Assembly: GCA_022566355.1 (NCBI GenBank)
Contig: JADFJB010000168.1
Coordinates: forward strand, 1-7,222
Source: a candidate division KSB1 bacterium
GTDB lineage: Bacteria; Zhuqueibacterota; JdFR-76; DREG01
Length of the DNA: 7,222 bases
Direction of reading: 5' to 3'
Shown: piece by piece, positions 1,774 through 6,335 of the stretch
Position numbering within the stretch: position 1 is the first letter of the stretch
How the letters are laid out: the number at the start of each line of letters is the position of its first letter
Made by a program: the position numbers and the translations under genes
The notes under the pieces: model-generated
Told to the model about the DNA's origin: nothing
What the model saw: only the letters and a program-made list of their open reading frames with translations
Database searches by the model: none

Positions 1774-2178
1774 TCATTCCTCATGGGCAGTTTGTAAGCC
1801 TCGTGCCATAGGAATGGCAAGATTTAGAGTTTCATCAATAGACAGGGGACCGGTTTCGATTTTGTCCTTTAGTGTTTTACCCTTGATATATTCCATGTCA
1901 ATGAACATCTCATCCCCCTCTTCCGCGGAGGCAAGCTTGAATTCTTCGATGCTGTAAATGATAGCGATGTTAGAATGGTTCAGACCAGCAGCCGCTTGCG
2001 CTTCAACTCTGAAGCGTTTTCGTTCCTCACCATGCTTTGCGATATGTGGTTGCAGAAACTTGAGCGCTTCAAACCGGTCGAGCTTAAGGTCCTGGGCTTT
2101 ATAGACCAAACCCATCCCGCCTTCGCCGAGCTTGGAAAGGATTTTGTCCCGCCTGGGCGGGATGGTTTGGCCGATCAT
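1774..2178 (-). pseudogene. Serine/threonine protein kinase, N-lobe fragment (truncated)
   Basis: The 134-residue product matches the start of a Hanks-type bacterial kinase. It has the glycine-rich loop GEGGMG (18-23), the invariant lysine in EALKFL (Lys40), the alpha-C glutamate region FRVEAQ (Glu59) and a hinge near MEYIKG (95-100). It ends at AHEE. In intact kinases the residues after AHE lead straight into the HRD catalytic loop and then the DFG motif; both are absent here. The fragment could bind nucleotide at most and should not phosphorylate. After the TGA the same frame stays open for 20 more codons (1711-1773), but these do not resemble a kinase. The ATG at 2176-2178 begins MIGQTI, an opening I associate with this kinase group. 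The gene lies 42 bases after the HU gene on the same strand. It is probably a deletion remnant; a short regulatory decoy is less likely. Confidence 0.85.
2147..2162. repeat. G+C-rich perfect inverted repeat inside the kinase 5' end
   Basis: TCCCGCC-TG-GGCGGGA is a perfect 7-2-7 inverted repeat in A+T-rich surroundings. It encodes the PPRRD stretch (residues 7-11) of the kinase fragment, where relatives usually carry a shorter SHYK-like segment between MIGQTI and KIL. It may be a small palindromic repeat inserted in frame, or chance. Confidence 0.5.
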
Positions 2179-2220: not shown

Positions 2221-2532
2221 TTAGAGAGGTCTTTTTAACTCCTTTTTAAGTAATTTCCCTGGTTTGAAATGTGTTTTCCTTCTTGGGGAAACATAAACAG
2301 TCTCACCGGTTTTGGGGTTACGAGCTTTGGGCTTTGCTTTTGTCGTCTTTACTTCGAAAACACCGAAATCACGAATCTCAATCCTTACTTCAGGGTCAGC
2401 TTCTGCCATAACTTCTCGCAAAATCGTAAACAATGCAGACACAATTTTTTCTGTTAATGGAAATCTTTCATCCACTTCACGGGCAACTCGATTAGCAATA
2501 TCCCTCTTTGTTACGGTAGTCTTCATTGTCAT
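2221..2532 (-). CDS. HU/IHF-family DNA-binding protein
   Basis: This is a small, basic, histone-like nucleoid protein of about 103 residues that should dimerise and bend DNA. The family pattern is clear: an N-terminal helical pair (TKRDIANRVAREV), then IEIRDFGVFEVK, where relatives usually have IEIRGFGSFEVR. Next comes the DNA-gripping beta-arm with KARNPKTGE, which carries the intercalating proline of the RNP-x-TG motif, and finally HFKPGKLLKKEL. The length is close to the usual 90-105 residues. I prefer the ATG at 2530-2532, which has GGA six bases upstream. A TTG at 2536-2538 and an ATG at 2524-2526 share the frame. The promoter-like element in the adjoining repeat ends about 20 bases upstream, so the gene is probably transcribed from there, with the kinase stump following. 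The sequence alone does not decide between HU and IHF. Confidence 0.95.
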   Translation of the reverse strand: MTMKTTVTKRDIANRVAREVDERFPLTEKIVSALFTILREVMAEADPEVRIEIRDFGVFEVKTTKAKPKARNPKTGETVYVSPRRKTHFKPGKLLKKELKRPL

Positions 2533-2552
2533 AAACAATCCATCATAATTGC

Positions 2553-2581
2553 ATAATACTAGTTGAGAAGTCCAAAATCAA
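2553..2581 (-). promoter_or_regulatory. Predicted promoter of the HU gene, partly inside a direct repeat
   Basis: On the minus strand TTGATT (2576-2581) is separated by exactly 17 bases from TATTAT (2553-2558), a sigma-70-like -35/-10 pair. The start of transcription would fall near 2546, leaving a leader of about 14 bases before the ATG at 2532. The -35 and most of the spacer belong to the direct repeat at 2563-2629. The same arrangement recurs at the second copy. Confidence 0.5.
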
Positions 2582-2629
2582 TGGTTTTCTTGACTTTATT
2601 AGGATTTGATTAGATAGATAATTTTTCAG
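2563..2629. repeat. Direct repeat, copy A (upstream of the HU gene)
   Basis: This 67-base segment recurs at 4540-4608. The first 38 bases, starting TTGAGAAGTCC, are identical. The rest differs by a few substitutions and a 2-base length change, and both copies end GATAGATAATTTTTCAG. Weaker similarity (GGACA, then TCATGGG) continues to about 2647. An imperfect hairpin is possible inside it: AAGTC and AAAA pair with TTTT and GACTT. It is intergenic, encodes no protein and has no terminal inverted repeats or transposase. Confidence 0.9.
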
Positions 2630-2674
2630 ATTATGGACATCATGGGGGGATAAATTCTATCCATCACGCTGCAG

Positions 2675-2688
2675 CCCTTATATAAGGG
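2675..2688. repeat. 14-base perfect palindrome
   Basis: CCCTTATATAAGGG is a perfect palindrome between repeat copy A and the terminator hairpin, in the gap between the malic enzyme and HU genes. It could be a dimeric regulator site or a small hairpin. No T-run follows on either strand. Confidence 0.4.
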
Positions 2689-2716
2689 TTACATAAACCA
2701 CCCAAAATGGGAATGA

Positions 2717-2747
2717 ATAAAAGGCGTTTTAATGCCTTTTATTTTTT
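2717..2747. terminator. Stem-loop terminator downstream of the malic enzyme gene
   Basis: ATAAAAGGC (2717-2725) pairs perfectly with GCCTTTTAT (2734-2742) around an 8-base loop, 41 bases past the malic enzyme stop. The better T-run (2742-2747) lies on the plus strand. Read in the minus direction the stem is followed only by TATTCATT. It is therefore a plausible bidirectional intrinsic terminator, stronger against plus-strand transcription. Confidence 0.6.
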
Positions 2748-2788
2748 GTTAGCAAATGTTCATTTATTTGAACGAGTGTACTTTCTTT

Positions 2789-4403
2789 CTAATAACGTGG
2801 ATCATACATATAGTCCGAAATAAATTGTTTTAAATCTTGAGGCTTATCGTTTTGAGCTATACCTAATTCATAAGCTTTTTCTGCTACAGCTGTGGCAATA
2901 GCCAATGATAATTTCCTGATTTCTGTTAATCGTGGATAAAGTGCACCATCTTGAATATTTTTTTCATTCACCAATTCGGCAAGTGTTCGAGCAACAACTA
3001 AAAACAAATCGTCTGGAATAGTCCGAGCAATAGATATTATAGCACCTAAGCCTAATCCTGGGAAGACATAAGCATTATTCCCTTGTCCGGGGCGGTATTC
3101 TTTTCCATTAAAATGAACCTTATCAAATGGACTTCCACTAGCAAAGATAGCTCTTCCATTGCTCCAATTATATGCTTGCTCAGCCGTACATTCTGCTCTA
3201 GACGTAGGATTGGATAAGGCAAAAATTACAGGTCGTTCATTAATGGTTGCCATATGTTCAATGACTTTCTTAGTGAATGTGCCGGGAGCTCCTGTGGCTC
3301 CAATTAGGACATGAGGTTTTATCGAATCAATTGCATCAATAAAATTTAACTGGTTATAATCATGAGCATAAGGGAGATTGTGTTCCATCAAATCATCTCG
3401 ACTAGACACTACCAGTCCGTTTATATCTACAAACCATAAACACTTATAAGCTTCTTCTTTGCTCAAGCCTTCATCTACAAAGGCAAAGACCATAAGGTCG
3501 GCAATACCAGTAGCTGCTGAACCAGCACCTAAAAACATAATTCTTAAATCTGAAAAATTTATTCTTGTAATTCTCGTAGAGGCATACACACCCGCTAATG
3601 AAACAGCAGCAGTACCTTGAATATCATCATTAAAACAGAGTACACGATCCCTGTATTTTTTCAATAAAGCGTAAGCATTTGGAGTTAAAAAATCTTCAAA
3701 CTGGATTAACACGTTAGGATATTTTTCCTGCACGGCCATTACGAATTCTTCGACCAATTCAAAATATGCTTCCCCTTCAAGTCGTTTTTTGGGATAACCT
3801 AAATAAAGTATATCTTCTAGTATTTCCTGATTATTGGTACCAACATCCAACATCACTGGTAGGCATTGGTGTGGAAGTATCCCAGCACAAGCTGTGTATA
3901 ATGCTAGTTTGCCAATTGGAATTCCCATACCATTTGCTCCCAAATCTCCAAGACCAAGTATGCGTTGCCCATCTGTAACAAACAATTACTCGGATATCCT
4001 TTTCAGGCCAGTTATCAAGGATTTTACTAATTTCTCCCTTATCATCCGGAGTGATGTAAAAGCCTTTTGATCTTCTGAAAATATGAGAAAATTCTTTACA
4101 AGCCTGACCCACAGTTGGTGTATAAATTAAGGGCATGATTTCTTCAATGTGACTGGTAACAACCCTATAAAAAAGCTTTTCATTACGATCTTGCAGAGAT
4201 GATAAAAGTATATATCGTTCTATATCATAAGCCTTACGTTTTATACCATTCATAACACGTTTTACCTGAATATCTTGACTTACTATTGAATAGGGTAATA
4301 AACCTCTCAATCCTAATTGTTCTCTTTCTTCTTTTGTAAAAGCAACGGACTTATTTAATGTGCCATCATGTAGTAATTCAAAGTTTCTTTTTTTTGTAAT
4401 CAT
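2789..4403 (-). pseudogene. maeA: NAD-type malic enzyme, complete but interrupted by one frameshift
   Basis: The enzyme oxidatively decarboxylates malate to pyruvate and CO2, producing NAD(P)H in the cytosol. The N-terminal part (ATG at 4401-4403) has the malic motif MPLIYTPTVGQAC with catalytic Tyr94. Its frame fails after DIRVIV. The other frame resumes with TDGQRILGLGDLG and runs to the stop at 2789, with Arg147, catalytic Lys165, metal ligands in QFEDF and FNDDIQGT, the dinucleotide motif FLGAGSAATGIA, SNPTSRAEC and a YRPGQGNNAYVFPG segment. Removing one base at 3980-3982 restores about 537 residues, close to the usual 540-580 of the large E. coli MaeA/eukaryotic class. Residue spacing fits human ME2 with an offset of 18 or 19. 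Apart from the indel nothing looks degenerate, so a recent mutation or sequencing error is more likely than old decay. Two promoter candidates lie upstream, a hairpin downstream. NAD rather than NADP is a family-level guess. Confidence 0.93.
3980..3982 (-). other. Frameshift site in the malic enzyme gene
   Basis: On the minus strand the gene reads ATT-GTT-TGT-TAC where conserved Val-Val-Thr-Asp-Gly requires ATT-GTT-GTT-ACA. One extra T in the TTT at 3980-3982 accounts for the shift. It lies in a small AAC/AAAC repeat context on the plus strand, prone to slippage. No slippery heptamer with a downstream structure suggesting programmed frameshifting was recognised. Confidence 0.85.
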
Positions 4404-4491
4404 AATTTCTGTTTAATATTTGCTAACGGTTGTATATATCATTGTTTTTACACCTTTTGCCAATCAGAATATAGTTATCTCAAGAGTTTTG

Positions 4492-4520
4492 ATTATAGCC
4501 AGGAGAAATTTCCAGTGCAA
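4492..4520 (-). promoter_or_regulatory. Predicted proximal promoter of the malic enzyme gene
   Basis: On the minus strand TTGCAC (4515-4520) lies 17 bases from a consensus TATAAT (4492-4497). Transcription would begin near 4485 and give a leader of about 80 bases before the ATG at 4403. The -10 is perfect; the -35 is only a partial match. Confidence 0.45.
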
Positions 4521-4529
4521 CGATATTGG

Positions 4530-4558
4530 ATAGTACACATTGAGAAGTCCAAAATCAA
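4530..4558 (-). promoter_or_regulatory. Predicted distal promoter of the malic enzyme gene, partly inside direct repeat B
   Basis: On the minus strand TTGATT (4553-4558), a 17-base spacer and TACTAT (4530-4535) repeat the arrangement seen before the HU gene. The -35 lies in the repeat and the -10 just beyond its end. The hexamer spacing is kept although the bases outside the repeat have diverged. Confidence 0.4.
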
Positions 4559-4608
4559 TGGTTTTCTTGACTTTATTGGAATGTTTGAATGGATAGATAA
4601 TTTTTCAG
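4540..4608. repeat. Direct repeat, copy B (upstream of the malic enzyme gene)
   Basis: This is the second copy of the element at 2563-2629, in the same orientation, with the first 38 bases identical. Similarity may extend to about 4640 through GGACA and TCATGGG, with roughly 12 extra bases here. The two copies bracket the malic enzyme gene, about 1.98 kb apart. Confidence 0.9.
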
Positions 4609-4758
4609 CCCACAGGCGGACAATGGTAGGCATCTCATGGGAAAACAAATCCGAGTCATTGAGTTGAGTGAATTTTCATTTTATTTACCTACTTTTTTGT
4701 TTGATTTAAAGTTTAAGGTTATGATTTATTTGTTGTTTCCCACATTTTTGAAATCGGT

Positions 4759-5631: not shown

Positions 5632-6150
5632 CTATCCCGCACAGCACGACAACTTCGTCACATCTTTGTCGAATGTCTGCGCGGCAAGCTTGATCCCTTC
5701 GGACAGGGTCAGGTAGGGGTGGAACACCGATGTCAGGTTCTCGATCGTGAGTCCGAACTGAACGGCGAGTGCTAACTCCGCAATCATCTCGCCAGCTTCT
5801 GAGGCCAGAATATGGGCCCCAAGGATCTTCCGTGTATTCTTGTCTGCTACAAGCTTGACGAAACCACGCGTGTCGCGCGCGGCAAGCGCACGGGGTATAT
5901 GTTCAAGAGGCAACTCTGAGCTAATCGGTTCCATCCCCTGGAATCGGATTTCCTCCTCGGTGAGTCCGACCGACGCCACTTGCGGATCCGTAAAAGTGAC
6001 CTTGGGCACTGCCGTGAGATCGAACGGCAGGGTATTGCCAGTCAGGGCGTTCTCCGCAGCCGTCGTCCCGCCATAGGCCCCGACGTAGACGAACATCGGC
6101 TCGCCCGTAACATCACCCGCAGCATAGATATCAGGATTCCCAGGCGTCCT
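5632..6150 (-). pseudogene. merA: Mercuric reductase MerA, C-terminal fragment
   Basis: About 172 residues match the end of mercuric ion reductase, the flavoprotein that reduces Hg(II) to Hg(0) with NADPH. Visible are NPDIYAAGDVTGEPMF (the FAD-binding GD motif near the end of the nucleotide-binding part), then the dimerisation domain from VPKVTFTDPQVASVGLTE through HPYLTLSEGIKLAAQTF, and the terminal SCCAG, whose paired cysteines pass Hg(II) to the active site. That tail separates it from dihydrolipoamide dehydrogenase. The N-terminal heavy-metal domain, FAD- and NADPH-binding folds and redox-active CxxxxC are gone, so it cannot be an active reductase. Homology stops near 6140-6150 at a junction with a metallo-beta-lactamase-fold remnant; the merA frame meets TGA at 6157-6159. 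An internal ATG at 6094-6096 could start a shorter product. No merR, merT or merP is in view. Confidence 0.9.
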
Positions 6151-6335
6151 TTTATGTCAAGATTATCGTAGTGCTGCTGGTGACTCAGAAACACAGCGTC
6201 GATCTTCCCGATCTCCTCTACCGGAATTGGTGGCGCCATATTCTTCTTTAACAGATGTCCTGGCCCCTCGTCTTTTTCGGTATCCTTCGGATCAAAGCCC
6301 GGGTCGGTTGCTTGAACCTTTCGGCTATGATGAAT
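6144..6335 (-). pseudogene. Metallo-beta-lactamase-fold hydrolase, internal fragment fused out of frame to merA
   Basis: A 64-codon open stretch includes ATDPGFDPKD, then EEIGKIDAVFLSHQQHYDNLD and KGR. This resembles the MBL-fold clade that carries TDPxFDP and SHDQHxDNLDxAGR, with the metal-site loop modified to SHQQHYDNLD. The N-terminal strands before TDP and everything after DNLDxxGR are missing. Upstream the frame is closed by the TGA at 6336-6338, which overlaps the good ATG at 6337-6339, so that start cannot feed this frame without a one-base shift. Downstream the frame runs about 100 bases into merA DNA, out of merA frame, and stops at 6042. It cannot make a functional hydrolase. Such proteins often act on small lactones or phosphoesters, but no substrate can be assigned here. 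Confidence 0.65.

Follow-up and report, generated by a model that had tools for sequence, protein, structure and literature searches.

A dispersed family of putative promoters before unrelated genes in a candidate division KSB1 genome, probably derived from 5′ sequences of a Ser/Thr kinase family

The window (the whole stretch of DNA analysed, 7,222 nt, which is all of contig C168 in a draft genome of 4.62 Mb and 213 contigs) carries two members of a family of about 28 dispersed repeats, best read as a putative promoter with its leader and longer than the element described in an earlier note on this DNA. We put the probability at about 0.7 that the repeat is one sigma-70-type promoter plus leader, present in about 28 copies and originating from the 5′ region of a family of Ser/Thr kinases. 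This predicted promoter now stands before unrelated genes, including those for an HU paralogue and a malic enzyme, and thus looks like one promoter that has been reused, rewiring many genes.

The repeat pair in the window and its family

The features of the window that concern us are as follows.

1774..2178, minus strand: truncated Ser/Thr kinase stub of 134 aa, MIGQTIPP..., just after HU (Pfam PF00069)
2221..2532, minus strand: HU paralogue, start ATGACAATG some 20 nt downstream of the −10 (Pfam PF00216; paralogues)
2540..2630, minus strand: copy of the family before HU, with the promoter part but little of the leader (model match 2508–2644)
2553..2558, minus strand: −10 of the HU copy, TATTAT, at 17-nt spacing (sequence; family conservation; promoter scan)
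2576..2581, minus strand: −35 of the HU copy, TTGATT (sequence; conserved in the family)
2789..4403, minus strand: gene for malic enzyme, its frame interrupted once near 3981–3985 (ORFs, Pfam)
4453..4617, minus strand: family copy ahead of malic enzyme, with a nearly full leader (model match 4455–4617)
4453..4467, minus strand: kinase-start relic CTGATTGGCAAAAGG of the malic enzyme copy; the family version is ATGATTGGCAAAA (alignment)
4530..4535, minus strand: −10 of the malic enzyme copy, TACTAT, at 17-nt spacing (sequence; family conservation)
4553..4558, minus strand: −35 of the malic enzyme copy, TTGATT (sequence; family conservation)

The two intergenic repeats lie the same way round, about 1977 nt apart, and share an identical 38-nt core that can be read directly from the sequence (2563–2600 and 4540–4577), as the earlier note had claimed. 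The repeat search extends the match to 58 nt at 88 % (2548–2605 and 4525–4582), and a further 25 nt are 92 % alike (2605–2629 and 4584–4608). In a search across the whole genome, copy 2 is matched by copy 1 at E=3.7e-22, and the repeat is therefore not due to chance. The claimed minus-strand elements, TTGATT-17-TATTAT before HU and TTGATT-17-TACTAT before malic enzyme, are both present, and the starts predicted near 2546 and 4523 are compatible with the positions of the two −10 hexamers. The −10 had been placed outside the repeat, but homology across the family runs through it, and it thus lies inside a larger element. At the malic enzyme copy the family alignment extends about 107 nt beyond the −35, to the kinase-start relic.

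A sequence-only model built from 16 copies finds 28 copies in the genome at a cut-off of E≤0.01, most of them only 70–80 % alike. The earlier note proposed a search for the core across this genome and its relatives; many copies are found in the genome itself and no convincing one in 20 relatives, and among these genomes, none of which is of the same genus, the family appears to be lineage-specific. Weak matches to the model occur once each in G002 (same family), G005 and G006 (both same order) and twice in G012 (same phylum); at E-values of 0.0016–0.009 and 18–20 bits they were set aside as chance or generic promoter matches. The exact core pattern has no match in viral contigs, and its only match in the genome collection, in an Ignavibacteria MAG, scores 12.4 bits with the model and was likewise taken as chance. 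No Rfam family reaches its gathering score in the window. In five cases two copies lie no more than 3 kb apart (on C13, C168, C164, C115 and C85), all the same way round; a uniform model in which contig breaks are disregarded predicts 0.49 such pairs. That one copy in the window arose from the other by local duplication is not supported, the nearest relatives of each being found elsewhere.

Promoter signature and orientation of the copies

A sigma-70-type promoter is recognized by −35 and −10 hexamers 16–18 nt apart and conserved at the key positions, and the family has such hexamers, its consensus being TTGAYT, 17 nt and TAnnnT. Among the 25 copies with a whole core, mismatch to the consensus is 2 % in TTGA and 2.7 % at −10 positions 1, 2 and 6, compared with 29 % at −10 positions 3–5, 18 % in the 17-nt spacer and 36 % in the 20 nt after the −10; TTGA is present in 23 of these copies and TAnnnT at 17 nt in 24. 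The probability of equal conservation at seven random positions is 1.5e-4. Since the copies were recruited by homology to the core, its overall conservation is inflated; the contrast within the −10, between positions 1, 2 and 6 and positions 3–5, is not accounted for by this recruitment, and judged from the aligned copies the pattern is that expected from a sigma-70-type promoter under selection. A generic promoter scan, which gives 13 sites against 9.0 expected, does not stand out.

Orientation was assigned by reading the ORF lists around 24 copies, leaving aside three at contig ends and C115:10692, which is without the promoter part. A co-oriented gene, or a kinase relic and then a gene, lies downstream in 23 of the 24, a raw count to be read without a random-intergenic baseline. 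The only exception, C164:5172, is also the only judged copy with a destroyed −10 (CAGATA). From the conservation pattern and orientation together we infer that the family copies have promoter activity. The dispersed promoter module suggested in the earlier note thereby gains support, in that the copies are many, nearly all precede start codons on the coding strand and their conservation is concentrated at the −35 and −10; the random orientation that the note held to speak against it did not occur, 23 of the 24 judged copies reading into a same-strand gene or kinase relic. The genes behind the copies belong to unrelated Pfam families and share no theme.

Kinase, tRNA-Met and HU sequences

The fullest copies lead from the 3′ end of a tRNA-Met through the promoter to the opening codons of a Ser/Thr kinase. 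C35 has, in this order, an intact tRNA-Met, a terminator-like hairpin, a conserved stretch, the promoter and the kinase start; copies at two loci on C13 and on C43 have only the 3′ part of the tRNA-Met at their start, and on C48 this 3′ part is present and the promoter absent. In the alignments many copies continue into ATGATYGG, with which Ser/Thr kinases of the form MIGxTISHYKILxKLGEGGMGVVYKAE begin. The kinase sequence forms long frames after copies on C47 and C13, three tandem starts on C35 (two short stubs and then a long frame) and stubs, some with stops, on C59, C164, C115, C80 and C23. Upstream of the genome's other kinases no convincing copy was found, and the element is absent from most of them, a point against the main reading.

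The 5′ region of this kinase family is the likely source of the repeat, which the earlier note had missed. Duplication would have spread kinase 5′ regions through the genome, the frames of these kinases would then have decayed or been replaced, and the surviving promoters would have been retained where they transcribed a neighbouring gene; in the window, one copy would now drive the HU paralogue and the other malic enzyme. Duplication of the tRNA–kinase 5′ region followed by erosion would be the simplest reading, the direction of which we infer.

The genome has three close HU genes, on C168 (the window), C85 and C13, which are 80–88 % alike at the DNA level. Upstream of the C13 gene the sequence is AT-rich with a GGAGG, like that of the closest matches in relatives. 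In front of the C168 and C85 genes lies the family promoter, no second promoter being evident, and both genes have the extra start ATGACA. In what would be a duplicated lineage, the repeat thus seems to have taken the place of the control region that HU normally has. At C85:6089 (L063) the earlier HU start codon is now ATA, and therefore only the new ATGACA start remains there.

No malic enzyme was found in the genomes compared from the same family or order, and the gene may therefore be acquired; its only matches in relatives are in two same-phylum genomes, at 42–44 % identity. The break in its frame (3975–3990) reflects either gene decay or an assembly error.

We note that the tandem kinase starts on C35 (L060) look like the result of a local duplication of kinase 5′ ends. 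The tRNA-Met pieces on C13, C43 and C48 (L081, L084 and L082) have a near-palindrome like TCCGCCAGCTGGCGGA at the place of the variable arm, and pieces with this near-palindrome sit upstream of full-length copies.

Alternative readings and known systems

The right ends of the copies scatter from about +19 to +257, and many left ends lie near −65 to −72, where those of shortened copies cluster at AATCTGAAAAATT. This clustering is not predicted by plain erosion, and a self-moving unit therefore has to be considered: a promoter–leader module whose left end tends to fall near −70 and whose right end is open could have moved by itself and rewired dozens of genes, HU among them, in one lineage, but we think this unlikely. 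Equally doubtful is a MITE- or REP-like small mobile element that has its own ends and an outward promoter, inserts ahead of genes and has kinase genes as frequent targets or passengers. The copies are indeed dispersed, apparently lineage-specific and intergenic, and the clustered left ends would suit such an element; the right ends, however, scatter, the boundaries vary, no inverted ends are seen by eye in the alignments, the copies are strictly co-oriented with genes, and tRNA and kinase coding sequence lies within the fullest of them.

The near-palindrome AAAATCATTGATTTT over the −35 could be an operator on which a shared regulator co-regulates all copies, and its AAAATCA half has 0–20 % mismatch compared with 36 % after the −10. 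This is nevertheless quite improbable, since of the two halves the left is the more variable (the right being the −35 itself), the variation is not what a palindrome preserved on both sides would show, and the downstream genes have no theme in common. Kinase stubs and a frameshifted malic enzyme gene point to ongoing decay, and the similarity among most copies is just 70–80 %, as might be expected if they were inert debris of duplicated kinase genes whose unused promoters lie before HU and malic enzyme by accident; yet debris would not conserve −10 positions 1, 2 and 6 over 3–5, would not be co-oriented in 23 of 24 cases and would leave two HU paralogues with no other evident promoter, and we regard this as very improbable. 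That the two direct repeats are the footprint of a single cassette insertion which brought in malic enzyme, a possibility raised in the earlier note, is hardly credible: the gene may be acquired, given its absence from the same-family and same-order genomes compared, but neither copy in the window is the nearest relative of the other, the two differ in length and relic content, and about 26 further copies lie elsewhere in the genome. Recombination between the two copies, also raised there, might delete malic enzyme.

The closest known kind to this putative kinase-derived family would be the putative mobile promoters. These, and the propagation of promoters, were reportedly treated by Matus-Garcia, Nijveen and van Passel in 2012 (doi 10.1093/nar/gks787). 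As described in papers that cite this work (PMC8049555, PMC4596501, PMC9208149), they are short repeated promoters before unrelated genes of one genome, without a transposase gene of their own. The present family shares these properties, with a promoter-sized repeat, predicted to act as a promoter, in 28 copies before non-homologous genes. Unlike putative mobile promoters, it shows a likely source gene family, kinase-stub intermediates and an adjoining tRNA end, and movement as a separate unit is only a candidate here, the ends being variable and the left ends clustering near −65 to −72. The spread of bacterial promoters to new genes has mostly been inferred from repeats of unknown origin; here a single genome shows what looks like the source, a kinase 5′ region next to a tRNA, together with kinase stubs as intermediates and, as end products, unrelated genes with the same promoter, and a traceable source with intermediates is what is new relative to known mobile promoters.

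As in the regulatory switching of intergenic regions (PMC9944727), the upstream sequences of the C168 and C85 HU genes are unrelated to those of the C13 gene and of relatives, but that switching is between isolates, whereas the HU change is seen between paralogues of one genome and its donor would be a promoter family of the same genome. HU thus offers a before-and-after comparison, with one paralogue having a relative-like upstream sequence and two having the repeat promoter. MITEs and REP-like repeats are short, non-coding, dispersed and multi-copy, and the present family resembles them in all four respects. In contrast to those repeats (reviewed in PMC10969869), it is co-oriented with genes and continuous with kinase coding sequence, and neither constant ends nor terminal inverted repeats were seen.

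Another short repeat, MITE-like and inverted at its ends (TTTACCCTGTGAGATAA ... TTATCTCAC-GGTAAAC), is present in six copies, at about 1610–1705 of L005 and on C179, C80, C115, C55 and C10 of G000; on C10, C80 and C23 it is located inside or next to copies of the promoter family and kinase starts. Elsewhere in the window, positions 5632–6239 hold a broken oxidoreductase gene that resembles the C-terminal part of mercuric reductase (Pyr_redox_dim, ending in LSCCAG) and adjoins a redoxin/deiodinase-like gene.
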